From Podochytrium sp. JEL0797 (lineage: Eukaryota > Chytridiomycota > Chytridiomycetes > Chytridiales > Chytriomycetaceae): a stretch of 64,000 nt of DNA. The DNA is taken from positions 1-64,000 of the forward strand of contig JADGJG010000040.1 in the NCBI GenBank assembly GCA_027596195.1. Reading direction: 5' to 3'. The translations under genes and the position numbers were made by a program. Below the pieces are notes generated by a model. That model was given only the letters and a program-made list of their open reading frames with translations, was not told the DNA's origin and ran no database searches. This document shows, piece after piece, positions 34,834-56,502 of this stretch. Each line of letters opens with the position of its first letter. Positions within the stretch are counted from its first letter, which is position 1.

Positions 34834-34924
34834 GATTTTTGGAAAATGATTTTGATTGGCACACACAAGAAAAATTTGCACACACAATAGATGCGCGTCA
34901 CCCTCCACACGCAAAACCACAACT

Positions 34925-36360: not shown

Positions 36361-37580
36361 AAAAAAGGAGTGAGAAACAACGTTGCCAACAAGAATAATA
36401 AGCTCTCTTCTGCTAGTGAATTGAATAGAAGGATATTCGCTTGTGAAAAGTGGAAGGGGGAAAGAGTTGGGTCAGCCTAATTGCTGCGCAGTTTTCAAAA
36501 AACGGCAAGGAGCTGCAGTCAGAGAGCGATTCTCTCGCAACTCAACGAAAGGATAGAAACCTATTTGACGCTCATCTCGCACTCTCTCTGCGGATCAAAA
36601 ACACTCCCCGATCCAAGATCGCTCGAAAATCTCTCTGCTATCATCCTTTTTCCACTATGCAAGCGATACTCTCTCCACGATACTCTCTCCACTAGGCACA
36701 ACTACACACGATACTACAGCTCCCACACTCGCACTGCACAAGAAACCCTACCTCCGTCAGTCTCGGGCGACAGTGCCGCACAAAACAGCTTGCTAAAGAC
36801 CAAACATAAACACAGCGCTACAGTCAGAACTCCTCTAGTCTCGCTAGTTGTTGTAGTATTTACTTCTCAAACGGCACATCCGCATTCAGCAGATCTCTGC
36901 GCTTCTCCTTCTCGTGGTATCGCACGGCTTCTCTGCCCGGTCCTCCGCGGTGATGGTCTCTGTCTCTGTAAGCCTGTGGGTGCGGGTTGTTGGTGGGGCG
37001 TGTCTATGGCAGTCTGTCTAGCTGTCTCTGCGCGGAGGAACTCACCATCGTACTTGAGTTTTTCAATTTTTTTTTTTAATAGTTTCCTGAACAAGAAAGA
37101 AGGATCTCGAGAACCCGCCATTCGCGCGCGGGATTCTCCCAAATTCCTTCGTATTCCTCACAATGAAAACTACTCAATTCTCGGCACACACTGACTTTTA
37201 AATCATTGACCTCCGCGTTTTTCTCTCGCATGCTTGACGCCGACAAGCGCTTTGCAGGACTGGCTCGAAAAAAGCCATCAGCCCTTCACAAAAGAAGAGA
37301 AAGGGAGAAGAGAGGAAAAAAGGGGAGGGCACAGGTATGCATCCTTGGACAAAAACGGAAAAAAATTGGGAGATCCACATTCCTTCAAGATCTTCCATAA
37401 AGGCCCAGTTTGGAGATCGCCCAGAAATCTCTCTCCCAAGCTGCGCTGCCTTTATTTGAGCGCCATTGAGACGATGATCAGCGTACGTAAATCTCTGGAT
37501 TCGTGTGCATTCGTTCCCCATTGTCTCCACCCTGCCCAAACTTGCCATTGTTTCCAAGCTCCCAATTTGATTCAAAACGA
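36361..37580. other. Long intergenic or 5' leader stretch
   Basis: No complete gene is visible. A perfect 14-base tandem duplication (GATACTCTCTCCAC twice) occurs at about 36665-36692. On the minus strand, about 36893-37050 looks like two joined short exons (MAYRDRDHHRGG...), possibly the RRM gene's first coding exons or a tiny separate protein. Confidence 0.4.
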
Positions 37581-37582
37581 CA

Positions 37583-39007
37583 ATGAAGCACGCTGCAAAG
37601 ACCAACATCCTGGTGCTCCACTACGTCAGCAACCTCAGCTTAAACGCTCCCTCCTCGTTCACGTCTTTCGTGTCCGACTCCGACAACGTGAATATCCTTC
37701 TCATCAGCAACAAGCTCTCAGACGCAGACAAAGCCCACTGCCTTGCCTGGGAAGAGGTTAAGAACATCGAATGCAACGGCCAAGTCGAACTATCAGCCTG
37801 GAAACTCTTCAAACAACACGGAATCGATCTCATCTACACCCAGCAAGAAGACTTGATCCTCCGCGCTTCCCACCTCCGTCTCCTATTCGGCCTGCCCGCC
37901 GCAGACCTCCTCCCCGAAGCAGCCCTCTGTTTCAGAGACAAGGTCCGCATGAAGGAAATCGCGTCGCAGGGCGGGTTCAAGGTGCCCGAGTTTCAGCGCG
38001 TGTGGTCGCCGGCGAATGTGATTGGATTCATTCACAAGAATGGATACCCGGTTGTCATGAAGCCGACTCTGGGATCGGCGTCGGCGAGTGTGGTGGTGTT
38101 GAGATCGGATCAGGATCGCGACCGATATTTGACGGAGGAATTTTTTAGCAAGATTGATGATGCGGGGAAGTGTATGGACTACAGGTATGCAAAAAACGCG
38201 TTCTTTTTCTTCCTATTTTACTCTCTTTACTAATCTCCATCCATTAGCGGAGACATCATGATCGAATCCTTCGCCCCTGGCACAATGGTCCACGTAAACG
38301 GATACGCCAACAACGGCAAAATCCAAATCGCCTGGCCCTTCACCTACATGAACACAAACCTCGGCTTCACATCCGGAACCGCATACGGCAACGTCCTCGT
38401 CCCTGCCGCATCCCCCCACCACTCCCACCTCCTCTCCGCCTCCCAACACCTCCTCTCAACCCTCCCCTGCCCAACCCACCTCTTTTTCCACCTCGAAATG
38501 TTTGAAACCACAGACATTTCCGGAACCCCAGTCTACACCCTGTGCGAAATCGCCGCCCGCAGACCAGGCGGGAGCATCGGAAACCTCATTCAACAATGCG
38601 AAATGGGGTCCACGACTCCACCACCAACTTCACCCCCTCTATTCCAAGAAATGGAATTCCGCCTGTCCTGCGGCCTCGGACTGCGCCACGACCGCACCCT
38701 TCACTCTCGATACGCGCGTGCGGATCCCGGGTACTCGATCGCGGATCTCATGGTTCCATTGAAAGTGGGAACGCTCGTTCAGATTCCGGATGGGAACGCG
38801 TGTCCTGTGGAAGGTGTGCGCGTGATTCAGGTTGCGAAGGTGGGGACAACGTATGCTGGGTTTGATATTAACGTGATGAACACATGTGTGAGGTTGGTGG
38901 CTGTTGCTAAGGATGGAGAGGGTGTGACGGAGGGAATGATGGTAGCGAGGTTGAATGACGCGCACAAGTGGTATAACGCTAATCTGTTGTACTTAGTGAG
39001 CAAATGA
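37583..39007 (+). CDS. ATP-grasp domain enzyme
   Basis: Two exons (37583-38184 and 38248-39007) join as DYS-GDIM to give about 453 residues. The N-terminal ~120 residues form a Rossmann-like pre-ATP-grasp region (ILVLHYVSNLSLN, GIDLIYTQQEDLILRASHL). The ATP-grasp fold follows: FRDKVRMKEIASQGGFKVPE, the adenine/phosphate loop GYPVVMKPTLGSASASVVVL, and the metal-binding EIAARRPGGSIGN. Enzymes of this superfamily make amide or ester-like bonds by acyl-phosphate formation (carbamoyl-phosphate synthase, D-Ala ligase and peptide ligases). The substrate cannot be told. No targeting signal is seen. The first Met of the exon was taken because it directly precedes the conserved beta strand. The gene is intact. 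Confidence 0.8.
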
Positions 39008-39057
39008 TCGAACCAGAGAATAAAACCAAACATCTTAAAATCATTGTCACTCACCTC

Positions 39058-40300
39058 TCAGAAAGGGTGAGTCTCTGAAACCTTTATTTTTGACGGGACG
39101 GGATCCAGAAGAATTTTTATCTTGGCCGTACCTACGGTGATGGCGCGTGCAGCTGGTGCATGCGGGATTCTTCTTCGATTTTCCATTTTGAGTGGTTTGA
39201 GCGCTATAAGAGCGCGTGTTTTTGCAGTTGAAAATCTAAACGTTTTCGAGCCTAATTGCTCCCTGCTTCTCCCTGGAACTCCTAACAGCACAAGTCCCGG
39301 TCTTGTATTCTCCCATTCTTTCCTACTCTCGTACTCTCAGACTCGAGTCCTAACATGCGCAGTGGGCCGGATCTCGCGCATTCCACTAACATTCATGCCG
39401 TCTCTGACCCAATAGGGCTCGGCAGATATTCGAGGATTCGCAGGATTCGGGTCGAATCCTCGGGATTCGCAGGATTCGCAGGATTCGCAAATTTGTCGGC
39501 AGATATTTCCTTCGAATCCAGAGGATTCGCGAGATTCGCAGGATTTGCAAGATTCGCCTCGTTCTCGGCAGATATTCGGGCGAAGACCCCTGGCATGCTT
39601 CATAGTATCACCCCTCACAAATCTGATGCCGATTTGCCAGCACGCTTGCTGGCAGCGATTCAAGGTGACGACATTCTTGCATGCCCTCCCCCAAAAGAAG
39701 TTGAAGACCTGGACTTCTCTCGCTGATTAACTTGTTTCCGCGTCCTTGTTTCTCCTCTTGTTCGTTTTTCTTTACTTCTTTTTTTTTATTCTTCTGAAAT
39801 AAATCCAAACAAAAAGGGTGAGTGCACTGCCCCACTGGGCCCTAATTTCTGACGGTACAGGACGGATCCAAAGAATTTTTTTTTCCGTTCCCAAGATTCT
39901 TCCTTTTTAGTTACAAGGGAACGAAAAGGGGAATTGAGCCATTGATACACGGCGTCTAACACCCAATAAATTCAATTACAGTAGAGGCGGGCACCACGCT
40001 TGACCAACATACCCCCCCCCCTCCCCCAATGAGCAGTAAATTGCAAAGATTGGGGACGTTAATTTTCATGCGTTGCTGTTTGGTTCGTCATACAGATTTT
40101 AAAACAAGAGGGAATGAAAAGTGGGACGCAAGATATCCGGCACGCCATGTCAGTCAGAAAGATTTGGACGTTTTTCCGAAATCCAAAATGACTAAACGCA
40201 GGTGTTTTTTTTTCCTCTTCATCAAAATAAAAAAATGCACTGCCCGCCCTAATTGACGCGAGTCAGATGAGTCATTCGGAGGGATCCGTATGACTCCACT
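39058..40300. other. Repeat-rich spacer between ATP-grasp and BAG genes
   Basis: No convincing gene is found. The stretch carries the GGATTCGCA minisatellite (39419-39576) and three related short motifs. At 39062 GGGTGAGT is followed by a GACGGGACGGGATCC-like block and GAATTTTT. At 39818 GGGTGAGTGCACTGCCC is followed by GGACGGATCC and GAATTTTT. At 40235 GCACTGCCC is followed by CCCTAATTGAC and GGGATCC. These look like ends of related decayed mobile elements. Confidence 0.45.
39419..39590. repeat. Nested minisatellite
   Basis: Units close to GGATTCGCA (9 bases; some GAATCC inverted variants) are repeated about fourteen times. They are set inside a higher-order unit marked by TCGGCAGATATT at 39419, 39496 and 39565 (spacing 77 and 69 bases). 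All reading frames stay open across it, giving Gly-Phe-Ala-type or Asn-Pro-Ala-type peptides, but there is no gene context. Confidence 0.75.
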
Positions 40301-40352
40301 TTTGCGTTTATTGCGAATTCCAAAACTTTCTCCCACACACCGATTCAAACAA

Positions 40353-40823
40353 ATGTCCGACGAACAATACATGGAACCCCCCAGCGACGACGAATCCATC
40401 TTGTCAAACACCGTCTCCGTTGCCTCCACCGACGCGGAGGACCAACAAACTGGACTCGCAACCTACCTCAACCCCGTCCTCGCCCTCACACAAGAATTCA
40501 ACACCGAGTTCCCCCTCTACCCAACAACCGTTGGTTCAACCAAAACAAAAGGATGGAAATCGCGACTCCGCGGGTTGTGCGAGAACCTCAAAATCGACCC
40601 AGTCACGCGGAAGCTTGTTCTGGGTGCCAAGGAGAACATGCCGCTGCTCGAGGTGGAAGAGAAGTTGACCAAGTTTTTGTTGAAGACGGATGAACTCGAA
40701 TCGGCTGGGTTTGTGATTGTTCGTGAAAAGAGACGCGCATTGGTCAAGGAGATTTTGGGCATGCTCAAGAACATTGACAAGGCCAAGAAGAGAGCGGTTC
40801 GGGAAGCTTGCAAGGATGAATAA
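40353..40823 (+). CDS. BAG-domain protein, copy 1
   Basis: This is a 156-residue single-exon protein. The N-terminus is acidic and Ser/Thr-rich. The C-terminal ~75 residues form a three-helix BAG-like domain: LLEVEEKLTKFLLKTDELES, then FVIVREKRRALVKEILGMLK, then NIDKAKKRAVREA. BAG domains bind the Hsp70 nucleotide-binding domain and trigger ADP release. The Arg in VREKR and the following basic helix correspond to the surface BAG domains use to contact Hsp70. It is followed 86 bases later by a paralogue on the same strand. Assignment to BAG is by pattern only. Start at ATG 40353 rather than the in-frame 40290, since the extra residues are not conserved in the paralogue. Confidence 0.65.
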   Translation: MSDEQYMEPPSDDESILSNTVSVASTDAEDQQTGLATYLNPVLALTQEFNTEFPLYPTTVGSTKTKGWKSRLRGLCENLKIDPVTRKLVLGAKENMPLLEVEEKLTKFLLKTDELESAGFVIVREKRRALVKEILGMLKNIDKAKKRAVREACKDE

Positions 40824-40908
40824 GATGAAAAAGGGTGCAATAAACGTACTTTCCTTACTTAAAGAAATTCATTAGAAGAAGAAGGAAAAAAAGATCGAAG
40901 AATTCTGT

Positions 40909-41400
40909 ATGTCGCCAATCATTCTGGGTTATCCGGGCTTTGACAACCCTGAGACATCCGAACCAGAATCCTCCGAATGCATCCCATGCGGAACAACTCC
41001 CTCCCCTCTCGATGTTTGCTCCCCCTTCGATGTCAAACAAAGCCTCAAAACCCTCGATGCCTTGGCACTCGCGTTTCACAGTGACTTCCCCGCCAAAGAC
41101 GACGACAACGTATTCCTCCACTCCACCATCCGATCCCTCTCTTCCACGCTCCAAGTGGACTCGGACGGACACGACTTGGACCCCGCAAATCCGGGGAACC
41201 GGGGGTTTCTGGACATGGAGAACAAGGTGGCGGGAATTCTGCGGCAGATGGAGAGTGTGCAGGCCAAGGGACATACGGTTGTGCGGTTTCGGAAGCAGAC
41301 GGTTGTGAGGGAGGTGCAGCGGGCGATGACGGCTCTGCGGGAAGCCAAGGTGGAGGCGATACGGCGGGCCAAGGGGGATTCATCATTGAAAGGGGAATAA
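40909..41400 (+). CDS. BAG-domain protein, copy 2 (tandem paralogue)
   Basis: This is a 163-residue single-exon protein aligned end-to-end with the preceding gene. Shared features are the acidic N-terminus, an early helix (LKTLDALALAFHSDFP matching LNPVLALTQEFNTEFP), and the BAG-like helices (MENKVAGILRQMESVQAKGH, then VVRFRKQTVVREVQRAMTAL). Identity is low by eye, so the duplication is old. The BAG arginine/lysine helix is kept, so the protein should still contact Hsp70 (inference). Confidence 0.6.
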   Translation: MSPIILGYPGFDNPETSEPESSECIPCGTTPSPLDVCSPFDVKQSLKTLDALALAFHSDFPAKDDDNVFLHSTIRSLSSTLQVDSDGHDLDPANPGNRGFLDMENKVAGILRQMESVQAKGHTVVRFRKQTVVREVQRAMTALREAKVEAIRRAKGDSSLKGE

Positions 41401-41597: not shown

Positions 41598-43483
41598 ATG
41601 TCAAAAATCGAGTTGACAAACCAAAACAAAAAACCAAATCGTCGTTCCGACAGCCCCTTACATGACGCGATCCAAACCCGGATCGTCACAAGTCTCAGCG
41701 GTCTCGCACTCTGCCTCCTCATTACTGCCGCATTCTCACTCGTGCTTGGAAAGGCCGCTTGGATCGTCGCGTCAGATTCTCAGTCAACCCGCCCCACCAT
41801 TTCGAACTCGAATGCATCAATCATTTCCCATATTTCCGTCACACTAGACCACAATCCTCCTCCTGCGCGACAGAAATTCATCGCCTTTGCTTCCCTCCCC
41901 ACAACTTCCTCCTTTTCATCCTCACAAACGAATTTAAAACACCTCGCCGAATGGATTTTAATCGCCAAACACCTGAACCGCACACTCGTCCTCCCACATC
42001 TCCAAAAATTCCGAACGACCGACAAGTCTTCACAATCAGTTTCACTCCTTTCCACACAAGACGCGACAACCGACGATCACGACACTGTCGCAATGGAGGA
42101 CTGGTTCCACGTGTTTCCTATCGCTGACGCAGCGCAACATTTGTATCCAAACACACTTAATGGGTATCACCAAAAATCGGATTCGATCGTTTCCCCCTTG
42201 TCAGAATATGCATCTGTGGTTGACTTTCACGATTGGCTCGGCGCCACTGAGCTGCGTCGCGCAACAGTCGCGTTTATCACAAACGCAGATGAAGGCGTTG
42301 AGTGCATTGAAGAGCATGATGCGGGTGTATGGCCGGAATGGACTGCGTGGATCTCGCCGGACCGTGCCGGGAGGGATATTTGCCTGCAATCTCCAGAAAT
42401 GGATGCGGTGATGGAGAGCTTGATTCTAGGCATCGATACAGCTACTGAAATGGAAAAACCGGATATTGAAGAAGCTGATGAGGAGGAAGAGGAAGGAGGG
42501 GGGGAAGGCCCCCAACCGCACGACGCACCCATCGCAAAAAGGCCAATCAACGCGCAAATCTCAAAGAGCGCGAGAATTCGCTTTGTGAATACGTATCAGC
42601 AGTCGATTTTGGATGTGTCCAATGCTCTTGTGGCCGACACGGCTGTAAGGAACGCGGAATTGCTAGTGGTTCGAAAACAGGTTTCGAAATTCACTTCGTT
42701 TTTGGCAGCTCAAGAGAATCTGAAACCTTTATATTCTAGGGAAACAATCAACTCTTTCCTTCCTCCTTCACATCCACTCTGTTGCAAGAGATGTTCCTGT
42801 TTCCCAACCAACAACTTTACGCGCTCATCCGGTCTGCCCTCCGAGCCTCGAACCTCCCCATCGTGGCATTCCGGTGGAACATGCCTACTTCCACGCTGAC
42901 TCCTGAATTATCTCGAACCTGTGCCGCCACTCTCTTCAAACACGTAAAACGAATCCTCAAAACACAAAACGCTGCATTTTTTGACTCCACCACAGACAAT
43001 GAAAACGAATTCCAAAAAACTGCCAACGTATACTTGAGTACAAGCCTATTTCCCGAATTCGACGCGCAAGACGTGTTTGTGAAACCCCTCAAACTAAACT
43101 CTGAACATCCCGCATCAATGCATCCACCACCACAACACCTCGTCTCTGCATACTGGTACCTTCGCAAACGGATCCCCGCATTCTTGGACGTCAGTTTCGT
43201 ATTCGAAAAATCCGAATTGGAAACGGTCCACCCGCTGTTTTGGCAGCTCGTGGACGAAGTGGTTTTTGAAGAGGCAGATGTGGTTGTTTTTGGTGTTGGA
43301 GAGTGTAATGGGGAGGGTGCGAGTGGATTGTGGGAGGAGGAGAGGCGGTTCGTGGACAAGATGAGAACGCGACGGAAGGCACGGGCGGTGGAGATTTTTC
43401 CGCCGGTTGGGGAGGACGATACGGACGCGCCGAGAGATGGGGACGGGAGGAAGGTAGTTTATCACAGCTTGACGTGGAAATAA
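41598..43483 (+). CDS. Type II membrane glycosyltransferase, O-fucosyltransferase-like
   Basis: Two exons (41598-42680, 42740-43483) join at RKQ-GNNQ with phase kept, giving about 608 residues. A short basic cytosolic tail precedes a membrane anchor (LSGLALCLLITAAFSLVLG, residues about 31-52). This is the layout of Golgi type II glycosyltransferases. The luminal part has the motif NLKHLAEWILIAKHLNRTLV followed by LPHL, which is characteristic of GDP-fucose protein O-fucosyltransferase folds. Later, LYALIRSALRASNLPIVAFR and VYLSTSLFPEF could supply the second half of the nucleotide-sugar site. An acidic insert (EEADEEEEEGGGEGP) near residue 295 is unusual. Donor and acceptor specificity cannot be told. 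Confidence 0.6.
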
Positions 43484-43687
43484 GATAAAAAAATAAGTAA
43501 CAAGAAATTTGGAGATTGGAGATTTCCTGTGAAGATTCCGCTTTACTGTGATTCTCCCGCAAGAAGCAACTTCCCACTTTTTAGTTTTGAACCTTGATTT
43601 GAAATTCAGAGGTTACCTAGGCACAGGGAAAGTAGGTATGCGAGATTTTTTGTTTCTTTTCTTGCCAACAAACGACTCAACCACAAA

Positions 43688-45262
43688 ATGGCTCGCACAC
43701 TCCCATCACTCACTGGCATACGCAAACAATACACTCACGCTTACAAACTATTGATTGCCGAACAGGTCATCACTCTCAACACAACACTCATTGCTGTACA
43801 CCCACACCGCAAACAACGCACTGGTGCACTCACAGCCATTGCCAAACAACACTCCCTCTCCCGTGCCATGGTCTCAAAGTGGGTGCGATCAATCGACACA
43901 CTGAGAGAACACAGGAAATCATTGCATGCCTCATTCCATCTGCCATGGGGCACCCGCATGGTGGGCGGAGGACACAAACACCACACTCGAATCGACACTC
44001 CCATTCCCTCTCTCGAACACATTGTTATTGACTACGACGGCGTGCCCTCTACCCTCACTCCCACTCCATCCATGGTGCGTTGCTTGTTTCCACAGGAGGA
44101 GGCCAAACTGTTTGCCATCGTGGCCGACCAGCGGAACCGCGGCCATGGCGTGTCTTGCTCGGACCTGTGCGACTGGATGCTGGCACTCGTCAAGGATCCC
44201 CTGACCCTCCTCGCGGATGCGATTCTGGACGAAGCAGCTGCGCGGCGCAGAGAGGACTTTGTCGCCTCGTCGTCGTGGCGCGCGGGATTCATGGATCGTT
44301 ACCGTCTGAGTCTCAGGGAAAAGTCGACTTCGAGGACATGTTCTCTCCTGGACCACAGCAACGAAACTCCCATTCCCCTTCCTTCTCTCCCTCTTCCTTT
44401 CTCAAAAATCAAAAACACACAAAAAAATAAACAAAATACAAAACAAACAAAACCATTCTTTATTCCTGTTTCTTCTTCGAATTCTAACATTGTCCAGGAT
44501 CCGAAGGTCGTTTCGTTTGACGACTTTGTTGATAGGAATGTCGAACGCGAACAACTCGCCATCCCAGCCATCAAAAACTTTGACCAGGCGCGTTTGTATT
44601 TCGACATGTCCACCAACCAGACAATCAACCCCACGGGGGCAAGAAATGTGATCATCAAGGACACGGGCAACGAATCCACTGGATTCTCCATTGGCCTCAC
44701 GTGTGCCGGAGACGGATCAAGACTGCCTCCTGTTGTGGTGTTCAAGGGTGCCAGAAACGGAATCTTGGCCAAGAAGGTGCCCGGGCAAGTTGCTGCAGCC
44801 GAGCTTGGCGTGCACGTCGCGTTCCAGAAGAACTCATGGTTCGACGCCGACGTCATGGAAAACGATTACATTCCCTCACTAACTGAGGGAGTGCAGGGAT
44901 CAGGCAAGACAATGCTGGTTCTCGACTCCTATCGCGCCCACTTGACCGATTCCGTCAAGGAAAAGTTCAAGGACGCCAACGTCATTCCCTGCGTCATTCC
45001 AGGTGGTTACACCTCCCAACTACAGCCACTCGACGTGGGAATCATCAAACCATTCAAGGACAGAATGCGCAAGTTGTGGAAGGACTGGATTCGAAAGCCA
45101 GTTGTGGACCCAAGTGAATTGGCCAAAAGCGGCCGCAAGAAACGGGCGTCGCATGTTCTCATGTGCACATGGATTGAGAAGGCATGGAATGACTTGGACG
45201 ATTCGGTGTTTGAGAATGCATTCCGCAAGGCGCTGTGGTCAAGGAGGAAGAGTGCACATTGA
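43688..45262 (+). mobile_element. Pogo/Tigger-type DDE transposase gene
   Basis: An open frame encodes a transposase of the Tc1/mariner-pogo group, which cuts and pastes DNA flanked by terminal inverted repeats. The N-terminus has a helix-turn-helix (ALTAIAKQHSLSRAMVSKWV). Next is a CENP-B-like second DNA-binding domain with CSDLCDWMLALVKDP and SWRAGFMDRYRLSLR. The DDE catalytic core follows: D in YFDMSTNQT, D in LVLDSYRAHLTD, and D in QLQPLDVGIIKPFKDRM. All three acidic residues are present, so it may be active. The segment at about 44345-44500 is low-complexity, Lys/Asn/Thr-rich, and ends CATTGTCCAG. It may be a retained in-frame intron. I could not find matching terminal inverted repeats close by. 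The giant Fanzor-like gene begins 494 bases downstream on the same strand. Confidence 0.85.
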
Positions 45263-45755
45263 GTGTGATTTTTAAAACATGTGGGGTCGGTAGAGGGATG
45301 GAGGCGACAAAGCAAAAGATAAAGCTTGTTTATTGCAAGCTGCTGCGTTTGGGGTTCGTGGCGTGGCGTCTCCTCGGAGCGTCATTCGTATTCCCCTGTT
45401 TTTGTCGACGGCACTTTCCGGCTGTTTGATGAAAGTGAATGGTGCATGTGTCCTGCTTGTGGTACCAGAAAACGGATGGCTTCTCTTCCCTGTTCTTTTT
45501 CTTTCTTTTCTATTTTTTAATTGAAATTTATTTTATGGGTTTATAAACGAGAAAAGTCACACGCCACACACACGCCACTGCTCGCGGGGTTATCGACAGA
45601 CAGACGGCATCCTGAACAATTCTGAAGGCGTAGGTTCATGGTGTTAATGACCACCTGACAATTTTTTTTTGTCTCCTCCTAAACTTCGACAAAAACCCCC
45701 TCCCCCTTCCCATCGTCTAAAGTTCCTCTACATCAAAATCTTAAGGCTGTGTAAG
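45263..45755. other. Spacer between transposase and Fanzor-like gene
   Basis: No gene is found here. It is AT-rich with a T9 run (about 45661) and CACACGCCACACACACGCCAC near 45560. It presumably contains the transposase 3' end and the promoter of the following gene. Confidence 0.5.
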
Positions 45756-48700
45756 ATGGATCACCCAGATCCACCAGTTGCTCAACTTCCAGACCCCGGT
45801 CGACATGCAACGTGAGTTAAACGCGTTGCGTGCATTATTCGGCTGCTGTTCCTTCGTTCCCTTGCTGACACCATCTCTTTCCATTTCTTCACAGTAACGT
45901 TGCGCCGAACAAACCACTCCAGACAAATCATGAACTCCCGGCTTCCAAGCGCAGGAAGAAGGTAACAAGAGAATACATACCTGATTGCCTTTTCAATGTG
46001 TTGACCCAAGTTTTGTTTGTAGGTTAAGGCCAAACCAGCCACACCAGCCACACCAGCCACACCAACTATCTCGACTTTGTTCAGCAACGCCCTCTCGTCA
46101 CATCCAGACCACACCCTCAACGGACTGACCCCTCTGGAATATGCGTTGTTTGGTAAAGGCGCCATTGGCAGCTTCCAAGAGCCAGGATTCCTCCAACGCG
46201 CCATGAACGTCCGAATTGATATCTGGAATTGTCTCCAGCAGAATGATCGAAACCTCGAAGGCGCACTTCCACTGTACAAGTTCCTCTATAAAGAAGAGCT
46301 TCGTAACAACCCAGTTGCCACTCACCCTCAGGCGAAAATGTTCCTCGAGAAACACAAGAGCGGGATTATATCGTTGACCCTGTTGTTTCATATGGAATGT
46401 GGGATTCGTCATAATCTTGGCGCGGATGGGAATCACGGTGAGTTTATGGTTTTCACTGCAACTTTTTTTTCCGCGTTGGCGTGATCTTACACCACCATTC
46501 CGCCATTACAGGTCTCACATCCTATTTCATCTACAAGCTCGGTCAAACATTCCTCAAGACATGCAAGAGCTTTGGCTACATTTCCGAATCTGTGGACTTG
46601 ACACCAGAATGGCTCGAGACCGTTCAAGGGAAGGAGTTCGCGGCATCTTTGGCTTTCCTCTTCACTGAGCACAAGCCATGGTGTCATGGGTTTGCCCTTG
46701 ACGCAGCAGCTCCATGCAACGCCAACGCTCCATGTAACGCGTCTGGGACCTGTAACGCCGCCGCCCCATGCAACTCTACCGGTGCCCCTTGCAACGCAGG
46801 TTCGACAACAAGCCAGGGCAAGGGCTCTTCTTCCTTGGTGGACCCCAGGATTTACGATGTCCTAATGGACATAACGTTAATGCTCGCTGGAGCCGCTGGA
46901 TTCAAAATTGTCCATGTTCACGCCATGGGCAAGTTTGCACAAGACTACTGGAAATCGCGTAATGTTCCCATAAAGTGCATGTTCTCTCCATCTACCAAGA
47001 AGATTGGAAAGCGGCAACCTTGCGACACTGACAAGTACCTTCCCGCCGTGAAATTCGTGTATGGCTTTGACCACCCCGCCGCCATGGCATACAACACCAA
47101 GTTCATGGCTTCTATCAAATCGGACGAGCCTATCAAATCGGCAGAGTACTTCATGTGTTTCGTCCTGGAGGCGCATTTCCGCGGCGGCTTCATGGACCTT
47201 GTCGGTGTTCCGGAGTCTGACCACACGCGGTTCCTCGACGCTTGGTACGCCCTTTTTTATGCGGATGTCAAGGAATCGCCGCTTTACTCTTGGTTGGTTG
47301 TCTTCAAGACATTTCCTGGAGTGTTTACGGCCGCCAAGAACCTGAAACCCGAGGCTGCACGGAACCTCATTCGCTCCGAAAACTTTGGCAAGGCCAACGT
47401 GAACCCCAAGTATGTTCAACGAGCTGACCATCAGAAGACTGTCAAGGGTGATTTGTATGGCTTCATTGGTGGCCACATTGTTGGGCCCGAATTTTCACAT
47501 TCGCCGCCAAGGGTATGCCATTTTCACATTCTCTGTTTTTCTTTATTCTCGAGCTTCTGTTTCTGACTCTTTTTAATCAGATTCCCAAACAAACCTCAAT
47601 CCACTTTCCCGCTCGCCTGATGAACGGGGTCGTTTCCTTGCCGTCAAAACTCCTCGAAAAAGCGGTGGCAGTTCGTACCTGGATGGGATTTATTGCTGGT
47701 TACTTCATGGTTGCTGTGAATATCCTGAACCTTCGTGGTGACTCGAACATGACGAAAATGCGGTCTGGGAATGACGCGGCCTCATTGCATGAGGCTGTGT
47801 TTCTTACGTTGATGCTGGAATACCGAATCAGCAACCCAACCTACACGCTCATTCTCATTTCGGTTAGTTTTCAATTGTGCCCGGTATCCAAGACCACGCC
47901 GATGGCGGATTTTCTGGGCCATGTGAGCCGCAACATCAATTCGGCAAAGCAGTTTTACATCCGTGACATTGCTGAGTTGGAAGCAATTGGTGTGTTCAAC
48001 GCGGCAGGGGAGTTGGTGAACGTGCATATTGTTGCGACGCGGATGATTCACCTTTCGAGCTTTTCGGGTCAAAACACAGAGGATGGCGTTGGGAAGCTGT
48101 GTGCGCTTGCGAGCGTACTGGGGAGTGATGGATTGAATGGGATGGTTGTGGGGTATTACGGCAAGTCGGAGGATGGGAGGGGGAGTGTTGGCCACAGCAT
48201 GATCGCTACACCGGGGTCTGAAGTCATGGACCGTGTTCGAATCCAAGCTCGAAAGATGCAAGATGCCAACTCTCTGTGTCTCAAGGACCACCTCATTGAC
48301 GTTGACAAGGCCAAGAACGAGTTACCTCTTCGCGTGATCGAAAACATCGTTCAATGGGATTCCAAAACCCTCCCACCCCACTCGTCTCTCCACAACAAAT
48401 ACCGAGCACCTCACGTTATCGTTGGTAATCTTTTCAAAACCATGGTGGAGCTGGCGCAAAAGAATCAGCAAGTGCCTCTTGAGATTGCTCTCGCTCTCAA
48501 CTCGTTGCGGGATATTTACGGCCGGCACAACAAGGAAGTCTCGCCACGGAAACCTTCAACAAAATCGGATTCTGCAGCCAAAGCGGCGACTGTTGATGCG
48601 TTCAAGAGATTTACACCATCGAAAATCGACTTCGACTTGAAGACTCTTCCACCACACAGCAAGAAGAACAAGGAGTCGATGCTTCAGATTCAGTGCCAGT

Positions 48701-51700
48701 TGCTTGGCGGTGTTGGAGTGGAGCCAAATCCGGTTGACGGTTCAGTGACTTGCAGTCTCGCCATTGTTGGGACAGGAATCGTTCTGAGTGTTGAATTGGA
48801 GTCTAACGAGCATTGTGGGCATTTTGAGAAGCAGTCTACCGGACAATTCGAGAATCGAACGTTTGAGTTGCGTGCAGCACCCTCCGCAAAGTCCGTGTCG
48901 AGCCCGGCGCATCAGTTTAAAATCCATCCTTGCCGTCGCGACCATCTTCCCAGCCAAGGAATACTCAACCCTGAGAAACAAGAACCAACAGCAATCAGCG
49001 TGCCACCACCCGCGCCACCCCCGCCACCACCCTCAACCAGCTCCACACCACCATCTCCCTCTGCACATTCATCAACATCCGCGAGCTCAAACAACCGCTT
49101 TTCTCCTCTAATCGACGAGAGCTCTCACATGGATGAGAAGGAGGAGGAGGACGAGGATGTCAAGATGCTGGAAGTGGGCGACGACGCCGAAATAGCGAGT
49201 GCGGATTATTTCGTCAAACTGTATGACAACGCCATGCCAAAGTTGGAGGAGGTGAAGACTGGATTGAAAACGAAACCGAATGTCATCAACGGAATCCAAA
49301 CCAAGAATGGTGGGAGTATTTTTTATTTCCTACAACTAAACTCATGCCTCTTCACAGCCGTGTTCGCGGTGGATACTACACCGGAGGTGCGAGCCAGTAC
49401 TTTGGCTCTGCAAGAGGGTTTGGATATGTGAGTTCTTGGTTTTTGTTTGAATGTTTTCGACAAGGTTGACTGATTTATGGAACTATTCGACACAGGGTCA
49501 AGAAAACAATGCGTTCCATCCTTGGTGACATGTTCGACTGTCGTCTAGCTCTTCAACTTCAACTTTATCGACGCTGTATAGACAAGGAGATTCCTTTCGG
49601 TTCAGAGTCAATGAGCTCCCAGATTCGCAACCTCACAACTCTGTTCGACGCACGCTTCAGATTTTCTCAGTTTGACGCTTCTCGCGGACTCACGTACAAG
49701 GATCTTAAAGGGCTCTCTTGGTGCGCCGAGGACATTCAGTTGTTTGTGGATACAACTCGGCACGGAATTCAGTCGAACCCACTCCTGTCTCTTATCCATG
49801 AGTGTCATGAGCTCCGCTCCATCACTGCAGACAAGTCTGGAATTTGGGGGGCTGTCTTCTTCCAAATTGTCACCCTCGATCCCAACAACGAGCAAGGACA
49901 TATTGTCTGCATTCGCATCAAGGAAACTGGAGTCGACAAAGTCAACAAAGTAACCAAACTCATCAATCAAGGAGCCCCGTACATGGTTGTTGAGGACCAG
50001 GATGGTCTTGAGTTTTGGACACTTGCTCTGTACTGGAATGGCGTCATTCCCGACTCTGATGTCCAAGATGTGACCGAGTTTCTTCTCAAGCGCGTTTTCG
50101 AAATCGGCTTTCCTGACCACACGGATCCACTTCATGCAAAGATTCTCGAAATCCAAGCCGCTGTCGGGAAGCCTGTTCATGTTCCTGGTTCGGGGCTGCC
50201 GGATTATGCAGCGAAATTGTGGGAGTATCATTGCCAGTTGGAAGCCGATTTGAAGGTAACAATTTTGTACATGTTCAACTCGAATGTATTTCGCGATTCT
50301 GAATTTGTTGATTTGTCAGGAAGAGGAAGGAGGTCCCCCAGTTCCCCTTCCCTCAACAGTTCTCCACATTTACCCATCCGAGATCTACAACACGATGCTG
50401 GGCGCTGGAATCCCCGACATATTCAACCCGTATAAACTGGAAAACGGAGTCGTCAACAGAAAAGACGAGAAGAACAAAAAAACCAAAGCACTCTTGATCC
50501 AGCTTGAGGCCGAGTTGGACGCCCTGGGTGATGAGGCTGCTCGCAAACTCCACGAGCTAATGTGGAATCCGTCCGATCCTGCCAACACCAAAGTCAAGTC
50601 TCACTCCATTGATCTCGTGATTGTTGCCATCGCCGCTGATTCCTCAATTCATATTCTTAACCATTCCCTCGGATCGTTGACGTATGCGCAGAAAGTGGTA
50701 TCTCTTGCGACCCTTACTCGTCCCACGGGCAGACAACCCTCGACTGGAATGCCCCTTTTTGCCTACCACAACGGATCCAGCTTCAGCGAGAGCTTCCTGC
50801 CTGCCCCATACCAGGTGGAGTGGCGCAAAAAGTCGGACTTGTCTCTGTGGGATGTTGCCACTGTCCTTGCGTCTTGGTGTACCAACCACGGCTTGTCCGA
50901 CTCGAATTCAGTGACTTTGAGAAACAAGCAGCTTCTATATGACGGTTCCCTCGCAAATCTCCTTGGTTCTGTTGCAGTTGGTGCTCATGGTTACAAATTC
51001 AGCAAAACGGCCAATCGCGGTGTCGATCGGAGTGGGAAGAAGAAGGGGGGCAAGAAAACGGAGGAGGGAGGCGGGGACGATGGTGTCGAGGATCCGGAGG
51101 AGGGGGGTGATGGCAAGGGTGTTCAATCGGAACAGGGGGGCAAGAAGAAGAAGGACAAGAACAAGCCATACTTTGTTGGAGGGAAGACCAATGCGGAGAT
51201 GCAAGCCATCCACGACTTTGTGGGTTTTGCGTATTCCTTGGACAATCTGTTCAGCAAGGAAGTCGGTTTGGTCGGGATTGTCTCGCGGGGTGTGAGCAAC
51301 AACAACTCTCAACTCTTTCAGGGTTGCTCCAAGGACATCAAATCGAATGTGGCGTCATTCAAGGCGAATGTGTTGCTCAAGGGTGAGTTTTTATTTTTGT
51401 TTTTCGATTCGACTCTTTGCGATTCTAATCGTTTTATTTTCGCAGACGACAAGAAGAACATCAACATTGCAATTGTCAACTTCAGTTCAGAGTTTTGGAA
51501 GGATGGTGTTGTGACCAAGCATCTGCCTGCTCAACCTCTCCATTTTCCTGTAGACAAGCTCTTTTACGCGTTCCACGGAAACACTGCGAAAGCCACCTTG
51601 AAGGCTGCGCTCACCGATCCTAAAGGGAATCGTTACTTTGCAACTACAAAAGAGACTACTGCACGAGCTCATCAGTTCTCCAACGACGACAAGAAGCGGC

Positions 51701-53366
51701 CCAAACTCCAAGTCACATCCGTCTGTGTTCTACTCGGCCTTCGCGGTGCCAATGGCAAGAATGTGAACGTGAACGTCTTCTTTGATGTCAAAGAAACGAC
51801 GCCGGTGTGCATCATCAATGACTACACCATCATGTTGGACGACAAAAAGTGTCCGCGCGCAGACCGTCGCAAGATGAACTTGACGTTGGGTGGAACTACC
51901 GGGTTCTTCACCGCGGATGGCTCCTCCTTCCATACACCACTGAAACGGAAGAAGGACGATTTCGATCATCCGGATGCTCCTCGAGTGAACAATGATGGGA
52001 CGCCTTGGACGAAACCCATGGCGAGATGGGAACCGAAACGTGAGTTCTGATTTTTTATTTTCTCATTCAGGTTAACTAAACTCCACAAATAGAGTCACAA
52101 CGTGCCAAGAGACGCGCTGCCAAGATGGAAGAGTCCCAGAGACGCGCTGACAAGACGAAAGAGGCCAAGAGAGACGATGCCATGAATATCGACCTTGCTC
52201 CAACTGCCGCCGACGCTGCGCCACCACCACCAACTCCTCCCAATGATCCACGTGACTTGAATCCGAAATTTCAACCGTTCTACTTTCGCGAGGGTCAAGC
52301 CGGGGAAAATCTCCGGCGCCATGAGCCATTCTTAAAGAAACACACTATGGTACAAGTTCGAAATACCAACAGCACCGTCGAGTTCAATGTAGAAAGCCTC
52401 TACAGTGTTGGTGGAGATTTGGGAGACGGCACGACGATTGTTGGTGGGTTCCGGAATGGCGATCGAATCAAAACGCGGAGCAACGAGGAAATTCCTCGAC
52501 GCGAGGAGCTCAAGAGCGATATTCGATCCGCGTGGGATCGCGGTGTGAATGCGCATGACGATATCGTGGATTTGAATGCCGAACTGCTTCGCCTCAAGGA
52601 GGATGAGGCCGAGAAGCGGTTGAAACGGGATCGTTGGATGAAGGCACATGGGTTGGATTCGGATGTCGGATTGGTTGGTCAGGCTGTGGAAATGCGGCTT
52701 CAAATCAAGGAGGCGGAGGATGCGGTTGCGGAGTGTAAGGGGCGGCTGACTTTGCGGGAGGCTGCGGTGCGGCCGGAAGTGAATGCGGCGAGGAAGGCGG
52801 AACAGTTTCGAAACCGCAGACGGCTTGAGGCGGAGCGCAAGGCGCGACACGTTGCTGCGGGCGGAGATGGCGGGCGCGCTCGACTGGGCAAGTTTGTGGC
52901 GCGGTCGTATTCCGAGGAACTGGAGCACCAGGATGCGAAAATCGCGAAACACGTCGCGGTGATGCACAAGGTCATCGAGATTCTCGCCACGTGCTGCCAC
53001 GCGCTGCTGCTGCCAAAGTACTTTGCCACGGGTCGCTGGGCGGTGCTCTCGTACGGCCGTCTGTATGACAAGATCAAGTGGATCAACTTTTGGCGCGGCG
53101 GATTCCTCACCTTCGTCAACGAGGACCACACCAGCGGAACTTGCTCGCGCTGCGGCTGCTACTCCCCCCCAGGCTGGAGCCGCGAGTTCCACTGCAGCAA
53201 CTTCTTGTGCAGATACAAGGACGGCCGCGACGAAAACGCCCAAAGGGGCATCTACCTCACTTCCCTCACTCGTGGAGCGGAGGTGACAAACATCATCTAC
53301 GACCAGCTTAACGTCCATCCAAGGGCAGGTCTCTCGTTGGCGAATACGAGGACCCCCAGTCAATAG
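45756..53366 (+). CDS. ~2,342-residue protein with C-terminal Fanzor/TnpB-like nuclease domain
   Basis: Ten exons (45756-45811, 45895-45961, 46023-46437, 46512-47512, 47581-49309, 49358-49427, 49496-50255, 50320-51382, 51446-52039, 52093-53366) join with every phase kept. Features in order: nuclear-localisation-like SKRRKKVKAKP (about 36-46), PAT repeats, a Cys/Asn repeat (PCNAS, PCNST; about 248-276), unknown globular regions, a Pro/Ser linker (about 987-1020), an acidic stretch, a Lys/Gly-rich loop (about 1604-1648), and an Arg-rich helix from 1919. The C-terminus shows LLLPKYF (2223-2229), FVNEDHTSGTCSRCG (Glu 2262; Cys 2269 and 2272), a second Cys pair (2286 and 2291) and GRDENAQRG (Asp 2298). 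That is the OrfB/TnpB zinc ribbon plus RuvC-III signature of Fanzor nucleases, which are RNA-guided DNA endonucleases. RuvC-I Asp could not be placed. The N-terminal ~1,900 residues match nothing I know. Confidence 0.75.
46715..46803 (+). repeat. Cys-Asn repeat within the Fanzor-like protein
   Basis: Six units of about five residues beginning Cys-Asn (CNANAP, CNASGT, CNAAAP, CNSTGA, CNAG) are encoded by repeats of the type TGCAACGCC or TGTAACGC. Regular Cys spacing in an otherwise intracellular-looking protein could bind metal or form a flexible crosslinked linker. Confidence 0.7.
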
Positions 53367-53467
53367 CCGTGAGTCATCTTTCTTTTTATGTGAAAAAAGG
53401 TTCGAAATTCTAAATCACTTCTTGCTCCTCAAACGTAGTACAAAGGATGAATATGAAGTTCATTATT

Positions 53468-54368
53468 CACCAATCAGATACGCGAGTTGAACATGAAAGT
53501 GTTAAGTCGCTCGCAAGTCGCTCATTTCTCTCCTTCCCTTTTTCCCTCTGCGCACCCCATCACCGCTTCTATTTGATGATGGCAAAAATATTTGTGTGGC
53601 CATTGGAGAAAGATTTTTGCCTATCATCTCGTGAGTCCCCAGTTTTACCACAATTTTGAAATGCGAGAAGGACCAGCTCATTCCAATGCATGAAGAATCA
53701 GATTCTTCCTTTGTGGTGATTCTTTATCCCAAGGCAATTTTTTTAAATAAACACGACAAATAACCTCCTCCCCACCCAAACACGTCATCCATATTCCCAA
53801 CCATAATGGCGCGTCAAAAAGGATCAGATTTGACCAGATGCCCGGCAAGAATACGGCGGACGGCTTCAAGCCACACCCTGCACAACAGGAAAGGCCAATA
53901 GCAGAGCCAGTACTCTTTATCCGCCTCCTTTTGGCGAAGCTTGGCCATGAGGGTGTTGGCAACCGCCGCTGGAACGTCCACCTGGCTCGAAGAACGGGGA
54001 ATCGGCAGATCAGGACCACAGTACCTCGAATCATGGGGTGATGTGGAGAGTCAATCGAAATAAACACGAACGGCGGAATTCGAGCAAGGACGGCGGAATC
54101 GAGAAACGACGGGCAACGACAAGAAACCGAATCAAAACGCGCGACGTAATAATAAAAGACCACTGTTGGAATAGCACGCAGCATGTAGGGCTACTAAGAG
54201 GGAAAAAATAGTCGTAGTGGTATTAGGGGGAAATGGAGAGTAGGGGAGTGATAACAACGAGGTTGCTGTGATCGCCCCCCTGAATTAAAGCAAGTTCTTA
54301 AAGAGTTTGTGTTTTTTGGCTTTCATTTTCGCGGCGCTTTCATGCTCAACTCGCGTATCTGATTGGTG
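53468..54368. mobile_element. ~0.9-kb element bounded by 32-base inverted repeats
   Basis: The left arm at 53468-53499 (beginning CACCAATCAGATACGCGAGT) is the reverse complement of 54337-54368 (ending CGCGTATCTGATTGGTG) with one mismatch in 32 bases. The arms enclose about 840 bases without a convincing gene. A 168-residue minus-strand frame (53678-54184) shows no recognised motif. The structure fits a non-autonomous DNA transposon or MITE. It begins 101 bases after the stop codon of the Fanzor-like gene. I see no clear target-site duplication outside the arms. Confidence 0.7.
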
Positions 54369-54376
54369 TAAAGCGG

Positions 54377-54447
54377 GAGGGGGGGGGGGGGGGGGGGGGG
54401 GGGGTATTCCCCACCCAAATAAAAATTTATAAAATTTTTTTTAAAAT

Positions 54448-54522
<75 letters not shown>
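54377..54522. repeat. Poly-G / poly-C snap-back
   Basis: A run of about 30 G (54377-54404, one A near the start) is followed by GTATTCC, an AT-rich spacer, then AAAATA and about 70 C (54450-54522). The G tract and C tract are inverted copies, extended by GGGTATT/AATACCC, so the strand can fold into a long G:C hairpin. Such tracts are hard to sequence, so the lengths are unreliable. Confidence 0.75.
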
Positions 54523-54812
54523 TATGACCCTCCGAAATGAATATTATTCAAATTTTTTTTAAAAGTCACTCTATTCATTTGTTAACATTCCTCCATTTCG
54601 TTTCCTCTCCTTTCCTGACGTGGCCCAACATACCCCAAAGATCATCAAGGGCGATAAAACACGAATTAAATTTTTCTGATTTCTGATAATACTCGCATGG
54701 ATGACATTCGAACAAGATTTTAATGATTCAGGACTTTATCAAAAGAGCAATAAAAAACCCTCCCGACAGTTCCCCTCCCTTGAATACTCTTCCTAGAAAA
54801 CATTTTAAAAAC

Positions 54813-55385
54813 ATGCTTCCCACCCTGTTCTCCTTCAGCCTCCTGTTCGCCTCGACCATCACCGCGCAAACCCACACCCCAACAGACTGCAAGACAGTCA
54901 ACGAATTCCTCTGCCAAACCCAATGCGGAAAAGTCTTGATCCAATGCACGGGTGTGGGCATTGGTGCCGCATTGGAAGCATTGGATGAGCCCGCGGCTGT
55001 TTGTAATAATGGAAAGATCGATTTCGCGACCAACTGCAAGACAAATGCTGCAGCGCCTGCGCCTACGGCCGCGGGTGGTGCGGCCAAAAATACCACGCAA
55101 GCTAAGGCCAAGAAGCCCAAGGCTGCTGCTACTGCTGCTGCTGCCAAGAACGCCCCTGCAACGCACGTCGCGGCTGTTCCTGCCGCTGCTCCCAATGCCG
55201 GCGCTGCAACTCACACTGCCGCGGAATGCACTGTTGCGAACCAGTTTTTGTGCCAAACCCAATGCGGCAAAGTCTTGATCCAGTGCACGGGTGTGGGCAT
55301 TGGTGCTGCATTGGAAGCCTTGGATGAGCCCGCGGCTGTTTGTAATAATGGAAAGATTGACTTTGCGCAGAATTGTAAGGTTTAA
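54813..55385 (+). CDS. Small secreted protein with two near-identical Cys domains
   Basis: ATG 54813 starts a signal peptide (MLPTLFSFSLLFASTITAQ). The mature ~170-residue protein has two copies of a ~45-residue domain with six Cys (FLCQTQCGKVLIQCTGVGIG, then AALEALDEPAAVCNNGKIDF, closing NCK). An Ala/Thr/Lys/Pro-rich linker of about 65 residues separates them. The two domain copies differ at only one or two residues, and their DNA (about 54905-55030 and 55241-55366) is also nearly identical, so the duplication is recent or kept alike by gene conversion. Size, Cys content and signal peptide fit a cell-wall or effector-type secreted protein, but no specific family is recognised. Single exon. 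Confidence 0.75.
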   Translation: MLPTLFSFSLLFASTITAQTHTPTDCKTVNEFLCQTQCGKVLIQCTGVGIGAALEALDEPAAVCNNGKIDFATNCKTNAAAPAPTAAGGAAKNTTQAKAKKPKAAATAAAAKNAPATHVAAVPAAAPNAGAATHTAAECTVANQFLCQTQCGKVLIQCTGVGIGAALEALDEPAAVCNNGKIDFAQNCKV

Positions 55386-55554
55386 AAACGCGTTTTGTTC
55401 TCTCTCTCTCTTCTCTCTTTCTTCGTTCAATCATTTTATCAAAAAAAATTCATTCTCATTTTTCGCTTTGTCTTTCACCAATCGAAAGGGTCTTGTACAG
55501 TTGAATCGGGGAGGGGGCGGGGGTTTGGATTCCAGTTTGGATTCCCGTCAAAAC

Positions 55555-56502
55555 ATGACCCGCAAAAAAATGTCACAAAAACTCACCATTTTCATTGTGG
55601 GACCGCCCAAAGTGGGCAAAACGGCGATCGCGAATTACCTTGCCGATTTGACCGACTCGTTGAATGGGGATGTGTATCACCCGACGCAGGGTGTGAGGTG
55701 ACGACTCTGTTGTGTTGTTTTTTTTCGCGTTTTGTTTGTTTGTTAAACCCAACGTTTCCAGAATCTTGGAATTCGAGAAGCTGTTGAGTCAATCAAAGGG
55801 AAAGGATATTTCCATCGCGGGTAAAACCCTTTGTTCTTTTGCTGTGCGCGTTTTGACAGCGCTGGGTGTCCCGCGAAATACCAACAAATTCGAAAACAAC
55901 ACAAAGTGGAGGCATGGGATTGTAGTGGAGATCCGTCCTTCATGTCCGTCTGGCCGGCCGTTGCGTCTTCGGCGTCTGCAGTGGTGTTTGTCTGCACGCC
56001 CGAGAAAAAACAGGACAAGGATTTGGAGGCTTGGTATGTGTACGCATGTTTTTGCTGTCCCTCCCCATTTTAATATCGTAATGGACTGGATCATTTTGAG
56101 ATTGGTCGATTGGAATATTTTTACTTGCCCTGAATCTCAAGAAAACACGCGATTCTGATCTCACCCCACTTTTTGATCAAACCAGGTATTCCATGTTCTC
56201 CTTCTTGAATCCAACCACCCAAATGTGCATCTTTTACAACAAAATCGGAGCGCAGGGGGCGAATTTGGTCAAGATACCGAAACCCAAATTTGGTAAGAAA
56301 CACACACAAAACACGCGAATGCATTCGACTCAAAAAACAAAACTGCACAGGGAAAGTGCTTTCCAAAATCCCCGTGTATCACACCAATTTCGCCGATGAG
56401 AACGACACGTCGCGGTCTGATTTCGAAACGCTTTTGTTTACGGCGTATAACGCGCATCACGAAAACCGAGAGCGGGAGGAGCAGTTAGTGTTGAATCATT
56501 GA
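55555..56502 (+). CDS. IFT22: IFT22/RABL5-like intraflagellar-transport GTPase
   Basis: IFT22 is a Rab-like small GTPase of the IFT-B complex needed for building flagella, here those of zoospores. Exons at 55555-55697, about 55762-56034 (possibly split by a 39-base intron at 55821-55859), about 56187-56291 and 56350-56502 encode the P-loop VGPPKVGKTAIANYL, the switch-like HPTQGVRILEFE, the family's WDCSGDPSF (IFT22 has WDCGGD), and WYSMFSFLNP. The tail ENREREEQLVLNH resembles the SRDREEMSII end of animal RABL5. One base appears missing at about 55905 between FENNTK and EAWDCSGD. Elsewhere the frame is clean. Compared with animal IFT22 it has an insert of about 16 residues before WDCSGD. Confidence 0.8.

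Follow-up and report, generated by a model that had tools for sequence, protein, structure and literature searches.

A giant Fanzor-like gene beside a pogo-type transposase gene in a chytrid genome

In the chytrid Podochytrium sp. JEL0797, a gene predicted to encode 2,342 residues ends in a stretch resembling TnpB/Fanzor nucleases, which raises the question of whether it belongs to the host or to a mobile element. The gene, which we call giant-1, occupies positions 45756-53366 of the forward strand of the window, the stretch of 64,000 nucleotides (nt) that we analyzed; the window lies in contig C335 (66,102 bp) of the assembly that we searched (24.4 Mb, 995 contigs). We favor, at a probability of roughly 55%, the reading that giant-1 and an adjacent transposase gene lie within one 9.9-kb pogo/Tigger-type DNA transposon (43544-53440), with the giant as cargo whose Fanzor-like C-terminal core would perform RNA-guided cutting as proposed. 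We compared giant-1 with two further sets of genes in the assembly: giant-2, a family in contigs C459 and C322, and giant-3, a gene model in contig C656.

The giant gene and its nuclease-like end

Using GT-AG splice sites picked by eye, we obtained ten exons, all on the forward strand: 45756-45811, 45895-45961, 46023-46437, 46512-47512, 47581-49309, 49358-49427, 49496-50255, 50320-51382, 51446-52039, and 52093-53366. The nine introns are 48-83 nt long. The spliced 7,029 nt close in phase, with a sole, terminal stop, and the GenBank model of the same locus, HDU98_007583 (P0001; 2,313 amino acids, 99%), spans the same exons, so that the ten exons free of frame errors described in the earlier sequence-only reading stand. 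Two short stretches of our model, of 10 and 19 residues, are absent from P0001, which also carries PF07282. A small exon-finding script returned the identical ten exons; as its tables were trained partly on giant-1 and its settings were altered after a first version gave 15 exons, we treat this as a consistency check only.

Exon 10 encodes the nuclease-like end (residues 1919-2342), delimited by splicing, Pfam, and profile searches. Among the remaining exons, exon 2 holds a basic stretch, KRRKK at residue 37, which we take to be nuclear-localization-like; exon 4 contains a repetitive, cysteine-rich stretch, with NAPCN at residue 251; and exon 8 encodes a linker rich in K, G, and E, with KKKGGKK at residue 1606 and KKKKDK at residue 1641.

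By motif and profile, the last ~330 residues of giant-1 are a Fanzor-like nuclease core. PF07282, the TnpB/Cas12f1 zinc ribbon, matched the C-terminus at 44.4 and 38.6 bits in two scans (cut-off, 26.3); at E ≤ 0.001, this profile matched 12 times across the assembly, in 11 contigs, and 11 of the matches exceeded the cut-off. The motif E-x6-CxxC-x(10,20)-C-x(2,4)-C-x(4,8)-D occurs once in giant-1, at residue 2262, and appeared in one of 20,000 shuffles of the protein. From motif and alignment, we propose D2027 (in GGDLG; 52416-52418, forward strand) as the RuvC1 aspartate, E2262 (53121-53123, forward strand), six residues ahead of the first cysteine, as the alternative RuvC2 glutamate, and D2298 (in GRDENAQRG; 53229-53231, forward strand) as the RuvC3 aspartate. 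The zinc ribbon, C2269-C2272/C2286-C2291 (53142-53210, forward strand), is supported by both Pfam and motif. The CX2C...CX4C ribbon and the RDENAQRG motif seen in the sequence-only reading are thus both present.

We compared this end with solved structures. In a phmmer search of PDB chains, exon 10 matched 8hr5 (a transposase; E 7e-5) and 9b0l (TnpB-like L79; E 0.0014), and the three remaining matches with E up to 10 were to unrelated proteins. We also built a profile, A2, from three nuclease ends of this genome: giant-1 and the ends in contigs C277 and C157, which are 26-27% identical to giant-1. A2 matched 9b0l at E 5e-8 over ~78 positions and 8hr5 at E 1e-5. Of its 19 matches at E up to 1, 16 were TnpB, Cas12, or related nucleases by name and three were unrelated; no chain among the 19 was named Fanzor. 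Significant similarity was confined to the final ~75-150 residues, around RuvC2, the zinc ribbon, and RuvC3. The question put in the earlier reading, whether a profile match extends beyond the zinc ribbon, is thus answered only in part, as RuvC1 is placed by motif and the three-sequence alignment. Invariant in that alignment are D2027, E2262, the four ribbon cysteines, and R2297-D2298.

A glutamate six residues ahead of the zinc ribbon is described as typical of Fanzors (PMC10711439; this and the other papers are cited for the parts of their text available). It is also present in both copies of giant-2, in C277 and C157, and in an ordinary single-frame Fanzor-like gene in C106 (L038, 3321-5060, forward strand; 579-amino-acid open frame), which carries HTH_OrfB_IS605, PF07282, and a DPG triplet. 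The D-X(125,275)-[TS][TS]XX-C4-X(5,50)-RD motif described for Fanzor and TnpB (PMC3627910) is likewise found in giant-1, as D2027...TS2265...RD2297 with 237 residues from D to TS; 13 aspartates of giant-1 fit the spacing, and only D2027 lies in a RuvC1-like context. Other models gave weak matches to this region: NCBIfam guided_TnpB on the nuclease ends (26.5 bits; cut-off, 100) and, at the same stretch, PADLOC models labeled Csx1 (E 1.7e-4) and Cas12u/Cas12f (E 0.001-0.01). Because the RuvC1 triplet is DLG rather than DPG and the second zinc knuckle is CX4C, we call giant-1 Fanzor-like and place it in neither Fanzor1 nor Fanzor2.

The ~1,900 residues that the sequence-only reading left unassigned remain so: outside PF07282, giant-1 matched no Pfam family at E up to 1, and outside the nuclease end it matched no PDB sequence at E up to 1. 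Protein searches with full-length giant-1, its C-terminal 374 residues, and full-length giant-2 returned solely Podochytrium sp. JEL0797 proteins; the full-length searches were limited to the ~8,000 candidates with the most words in common with the query, and every search to proteins of 0.55-1.75 query lengths, so that remote or shorter relatives could escape them. A scan of viral contigs with the three-sequence alignment confirmed none of 156 pattern matches as relatives, and a scan with the ordinary Fanzor of C106 confirmed one of 16.

The surrounding repeat and the other giants

DNA searches of the genome itself place giant-1 inside a dispersed repeat. A left edge lies at 43543/43544, ahead of a DDE_1 transposase gene, and is common to four contigs (the window; C322, 99%; C107, 92%; C662, 100% over 65 bp), which share sequence from TTACTGTGATTCTCC onward and are unrelated before it. 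C662 departs again after those 65 bp, and four further left-end matches (C48, C582, C281, and C665; 78-79% identity) start 19-37 bp further inward. A right edge is common to three contigs (the window; C238, 97%; C45, 100%), which share sequence up to ...CAAACGTAGTACA (53442) and differ beyond. C238 and C45 reach this edge from their own contig ends, so the interior of each copy is missing from these contigs. C221 is 82% identical over 53273-53348 and ends ~90 bp short of the edge.

The two ends resemble imperfect terminal inverted repeats. We compared the left terminal sequence, TACTGTGATTCTCCCGCAAGAAG... (43544-43603, forward strand), with the reverse complement of the right, TACTACGTTTGAGGAGCAAGAAG... 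(53381-53440, reverse strand): 22 of 40 positions match ungapped (shuffle P 5e-5), both begin TACT, and both carry GCAAGAAG in register, an in-register run of a length found in 0.059% of random genomic pairs. TA is present at both edges of the window copy. AAGAAG occupies columns 18-23 of all four ends compared, two giant-2 right ends included. Because both edges recur with unrelated flanks and the ends resemble imperfect inverted repeats beside TA, a single transposon of 9,897 bp, TA to TA (43544-53440; shared sequence on the right reaches 53442), is the likeliest arrangement. We also considered a CA that follows the TA at three of three giant-1 right ends and resembles a transposon-adjacent motif; it is absent from four giant-2 right ends and three copies are too few, and we dropped it.

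The transposase gene (43688-45262, forward strand) is an open single exon of 524 amino acids of the DDE_1 (pogo/Tigger) type, matching PF03184 at 88.9 bits (cut-off, 22); HTH_Tnp_Tc5 scored 13.9 bits, under its cut-off of 22.2. The ratio of nonsynonymous to synonymous substitution rates (dN/dS) against other copies was 0.22 for C107 (312 codons), 0.11 for C349 (406), 0.18 for C402 (134), and 0.52 for C476 (249). The C322 copy is nearly identical over 312 codons, too similar for a dN/dS value. Between transposase and giant-1 lies a linker (45263-45755, forward strand), and between the giant-1 stop codon and the right end are 74 nt (53367-53440, forward strand), the place where a guide-RNA scaffold would be expected and where we found no significant fold. 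The best reading of this arrangement is that giant-1, like Fanzor1, is carried by a eukaryotic DNA transposon, a single element that probably includes the transposase.

Giant-2 offers a comparison in two diverged copies. Our model in C459 has ten exons and 1,600 amino acids (GenBank P0002, 1,634 amino acids), and the gene in C322 (GenBank P0003, 1,628 amino acids) is 69% identical to it. The right ends of giant-2 in C459, C322, C236, and C294 share ...TGAATGTA and diverge beyond; the copies in C704 and C939 depart ahead of that point, and further fragments lie in C396, C457, and C727. In C459 and C322, the first and last CxxC of the giant-2 zinc ribbon are, judged by eye, ~230 residues apart, and the intervening stretch is acidic.

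Giant-3 is a ten-exon model of 2,545 amino acids within the stretch of C656 (L061) that we read (31500-41400), ending in E-x6-CxC...RDAKSAE. Pfam gave nothing for its nuclease-like end even at E 10, and we assign it to the family by motif layout alone. A partial DDE_1 domain adjoins it, and we noted weak, below-cut-off C2H2 zinc-finger matches with that domain. C656 contains three transposase matches, at ~31.9, 41.9, and 51.8 kb on one strand and 9,945 bp apart, and this spacing suggests a tandem array. In C157, two TnpB-like nuclease ends, at 49133 and 58679, lie on the same strand 9,546 bp apart, a spacing near 10 kb.

As far as sequence comparison detects, the three giants share only motif layout. 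Giant-1 and giant-2 showed no similarity by blastp (best E 0.55) or phmmer, giant-1 and giant-3 matched only over 37 residues at the zinc ribbon (E 0.13), and nothing better than E 0.9 linked giant-2 and giant-3. Neither giant-2 nor giant-3 matches the Fanzor D...[TS][TS]...RD signature as a strict pattern. The RuvC1 triplets also vary: DLG in giant-1, DMG or DLG in giant-2, DQG in giant-3, and DIG in C157, with DPG only in C277 and C106.

Substitution patterns indicate that the giant parts are constrained as protein beyond the nuclease end. Between the C459 and C322 copies of giant-2, dN/dS was 0.36 (NG86) over 1,542 codons, and in six segments from the N to the C terminus it was 0.29 (the first 500 residues), 0.40, 0.61, 0.40, 0.25, and 0.28. 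For giant-1, it was 0.48 against C415 (89 codons) and 0.37 against C516 (232 codons), which now carries stops; all values for the giants are point estimates with no significance test. In the sequence-only reading, intact splicing was taken to argue for selection. The estimates of 0.36-0.48 bear this out more directly, but they fit selection on a mobile element's own gene. Synonymous divergence (dS) in giant-2 is low near the gene end (0.20, codons 1477-1577) but not uniquely so (0.23, codons 944-1044).

Near the giant-2 right ends, we found candidates for a guide RNA. The 150 nt ending 4 nt beyond the right edge fold with z -4.4 in C459 and -6.7 in C322 (0 of 200 shuffles each), against a background of 160 random 150-nt windows with mean 0.09, standard deviation 1.15, and minimum -4.5, drawn from a pool that included C459 and C322. 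Two hairpins are common to both right ends and are a candidate guide-RNA scaffold. The second hairpin extends to the element terminus and may therefore belong to the transposon end as DNA.

Several features lie in the window beyond the right end. A separate element of ~0.9 kb (53468-54368), with 32-bp inverted repeats (97%; CACCAATCAGATACGCGAGTTGAACATGAAAG), begins 28 bp beyond it, and related pieces are present in C119, C344, and C8. A run of ~30 G (54375-54404) and a run of ~70 C (54450-54523), separated by a short AT-rich stretch, are possibly an assembly artifact. A 117-bp direct repeat (94%; 54912-55028 and 55251-55367) lies inside a frame that repeats a cysteine-containing domain.

Competing explanations

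Two sets of observations weigh against the reading of giant-1 as an RNA-guided cutter carried by a single transposon. The first concerns the nuclease. Its RuvC1 is DLG, a departure from the DPG that Fanzors nearly always carry (PMC10711439), and RuvC1 is not significant by profile alone: it lies in register in 8hr5 and 9nzq, with scores that are meaningless by themselves. The second knuckle is CX4C, and the strict CxxC...CxxC pattern of the available part of PMC10711439 is absent from giant-1 and present in C106. The TDG motif of the Fanzor1 WED domain occurs nowhere in the giant-1 protein, and PF07282 is borderline in giant-2 relative to the cut-off of 26.3: the last open frames score 27.5 and 31.6 bits, and the full-length GenBank proteins score 24.4 and 28.1. 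The right end of giant-1 has no stable fold (150 nt, z +0.64; 74 nt, z +1.27 against shuffles). In the giant-2 consensus fold of 46 pairs, two pairs changed on both sides and four on one, and a break or gap affects 13 in one of the four sequences; the covariation term is unfavorable (+1.75), for what are in effect two independent sequences.

These observations leave room for an alternative that we consider doubtful but take seriously, in which giant-1 is Fanzor-like by descent and no longer an RNA-guided cutter. Its C-terminus would be DNA-binding or inactive, and the giant part would aid the transposase, in targeting or synapsis, or counter silencing. The altered triplet and ribbon, the missing TDG motif, and the unstructured right end of giant-1 are as this alternative would have it, as is the eroded motif of giant-3, with CxC in place of CxxC. 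However, the three acidic residues are retained in giant-1 and giant-2, bacterial TnpBs typically have a hydrophobic residue next to the RuvC1 aspartate, on its C-terminal side (PMC10711439), and the right end of giant-2 is structured. We also scanned giant-1 more widely: none of 11 sliding windows at its right end was more stable than shuffles (lowest z -1.8), the lowest z among 13 windows of the left end and linker, on both strands, was -2.5 (at 45683), and 43300-54700 held no Rfam match. The absence of a strong fold does not disprove RNA guidance, because the downstream stretches of C277 (z -0.5), C157 (-2.1), C656 (+1.0), and the ordinary Fanzor-like gene in C106 (-1.6) also fold weakly.

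The second set concerns the transposon. The inverted repeats hold up less well when gaps are allowed (P 0.018). Between the giant-2 right end and the left end, the ungapped resemblance is weak (P 0.006-0.048) and the gapped one absent (P 0.47); the right ends of giant-1 and giant-2 show no resemblance (P 0.10-0.29). Among the contigs found, there is no end-to-end copy of the giant-1 element besides that of the window, the rest being contig-end pieces or fragments. Upstream of giant-2 in C322 there is no transposase, bar a piece of another copy (3-938), and the 1.2 kb read there shows no terminal pattern. The linkers agree only in part. A 92-bp segment (45346-45437) is 91% identical to the end of C459, ~375 bp before the giant-2 gene start, so part of the same linker precedes two giants that are not detectably similar, which speaks for the single element; the rest of the C459 linker is not like that of the window (score 23; shuffles up to 32), which speaks against it.

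Two adjacent elements would account for this: a pogo transposon that ends within the linker, followed by a giant gene that is mobile in its own right and has no transposase, in the manner of SPu-1, where Fanzor is the sole encoded protein. We regard this arrangement as unlikely, though the short linker agreement, its distance from the gene, and the lack of further likeness count in its favor and against the single element. The giant-2 gene in C322 with no transposase upstream and the imperfect match of right end to left end are also compatible with it. Against it, linker sequence lies ahead of giant-2 in C459 as well, and in C349 a transposase copy is followed by ~35 bp resembling 45600-45635 (score 35; 300 shuffles up to 28). 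Moreover, a scan of both strands of 42001-56000, allowing up to four mismatches, turned up neither the 18-base left terminus nor the 16-base right terminus a second time. Two 15-base versions of the termini gave four extra matches with four mismatches each (45340, 47712, 51168, and 54264), which by arithmetic is about the chance expectation.

The remaining alternatives are far weaker. The domesticated giant envisaged in the sequence-only reading, a single-copy host gene derived from Fanzor, would fit the one intact giant-1 copy assembled and dN/dS below 1, but we consider it very improbable: giant-1 lies inside a dispersed repeat (edges at ~43544 and ~53440) with an open transposase gene beside it and its stop 74 bp before the right edge, the right edge recurs at 97-100% in two other contigs and the left at 92-100% in three, all with unrelated flanks, and the C516 relative carries stops. 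Equally improbable is a mistaken joining of two or more genes, to which the N-terminal parts without a Pfam family would be open, as the GenBank model spans the exons of our own and giant-2 shows the same plan in two diverged copies (P0002 and P0003), with dN/dS under 0.65 throughout its six segments.

Known systems and a possible role

Fanzor1 genes are known from Tc1/mariner elements, PGv-1, PUl-1, and SPu-1 of the chytrid Spizellomyces punctatus (Bao and Jurka, 2013, PMC3627910). As in these elements, a TnpB-like protein would here be carried by an element with TA duplications (putative for SPu-1 and here), and as in the chimeric Fanzor elements of that study, transposase ends are alike while the 3′ cargo differs between elements. 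Unlike the Tc1/mariner elements, the window transposase is of DDE_1 (pogo) type. The likeness to SPu-1 is by description only, and its protein has 633 amino acids in one frame, compared to 2,342 in ten exons for giant-1.

The nuclease itself recalls SpuFz1, GtFz1, and PpFz1, with RuvC-type acidic residues and a zinc ribbon toward the C terminus (PMC10432273, PMC11423790). The RNA scaffold of SpuFz1 consists of 75 conserved nt that lie downstream of its gene and span the inverted repeat, similar in place and length to the 74 nt that follow giant-1. Published Fanzors are compact, most Fz1 proteins having 600-700 amino acids and some up to ~800, and giant-1 differs from them in this respect; in the parts of the Fanzor literature available, we provisionally found no report of a Fanzor above ~800 residues. 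In the same literature, and as provisionally, we found no description of such an element, in keeping with the suggestion in the sequence-only reading of an undescribed type of Fanzor-bearing element.

The best solved match of profile A2 (E 5e-8) is L79, PDB 9b0l, which we take to be a mimivirus IS607 Fanzor2; L79 has 520 amino acids. Giant-1 shares PF07282 with bacterial TnpB/Cas12f, and unlike bacterial TnpB it has its glutamate in the Fanzor-type position, contains introns, and is about six times the size of a ~400-amino-acid TnpB.

If giant-1 is nuclease cargo of a single transposon, the transposase would excise the element and insert it at TA. The C-terminal nuclease of the giant, guided by RNA from the right end of the element and flanking DNA, would cut the emptied or allelic site, and repair of the cut would bring a copy of the element back to it, in line with proposals for TnpB and Fanzor. 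The role of the family-specific N-terminal 1,000-2,000 residues would be binding, either of guide RNA and target or of partners (for example, the transposase). By analogy with these systems, we infer that RNA-guided cutting by giant-1 would help the transposon persist.

A bolder possibility, which we hold to be improbable, is a chytrid OMEGA effector of a new kind. Here giant, multi-exon, Fanzor-tailed proteins of 1,600-2,550 amino acids, in which one and the same core has either been fused to or itself grown differing huge N-terminal modules, would act with a pogo transposase in one element, and right-end RNA may steer insertion or the restoration of lost copies. If true, the joint machine of giant and transposase would be a eukaryotic counterpart of RNA-guided transposition.

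Because giant-1 lies beside a transposase gene and giant-2 is available as two intact but diverged copies, the role of a Fanzor for its transposon could be tested in one chytrid strain. The giants are two to four times the size of Fanzors, with the core at the extreme C terminus, and their N-terminal parts are dissimilar between families within a single genome. Such proteins would show that this lineage tolerates or recruits modules of very large size, comparable to the growth of Cas12 from TnpB.

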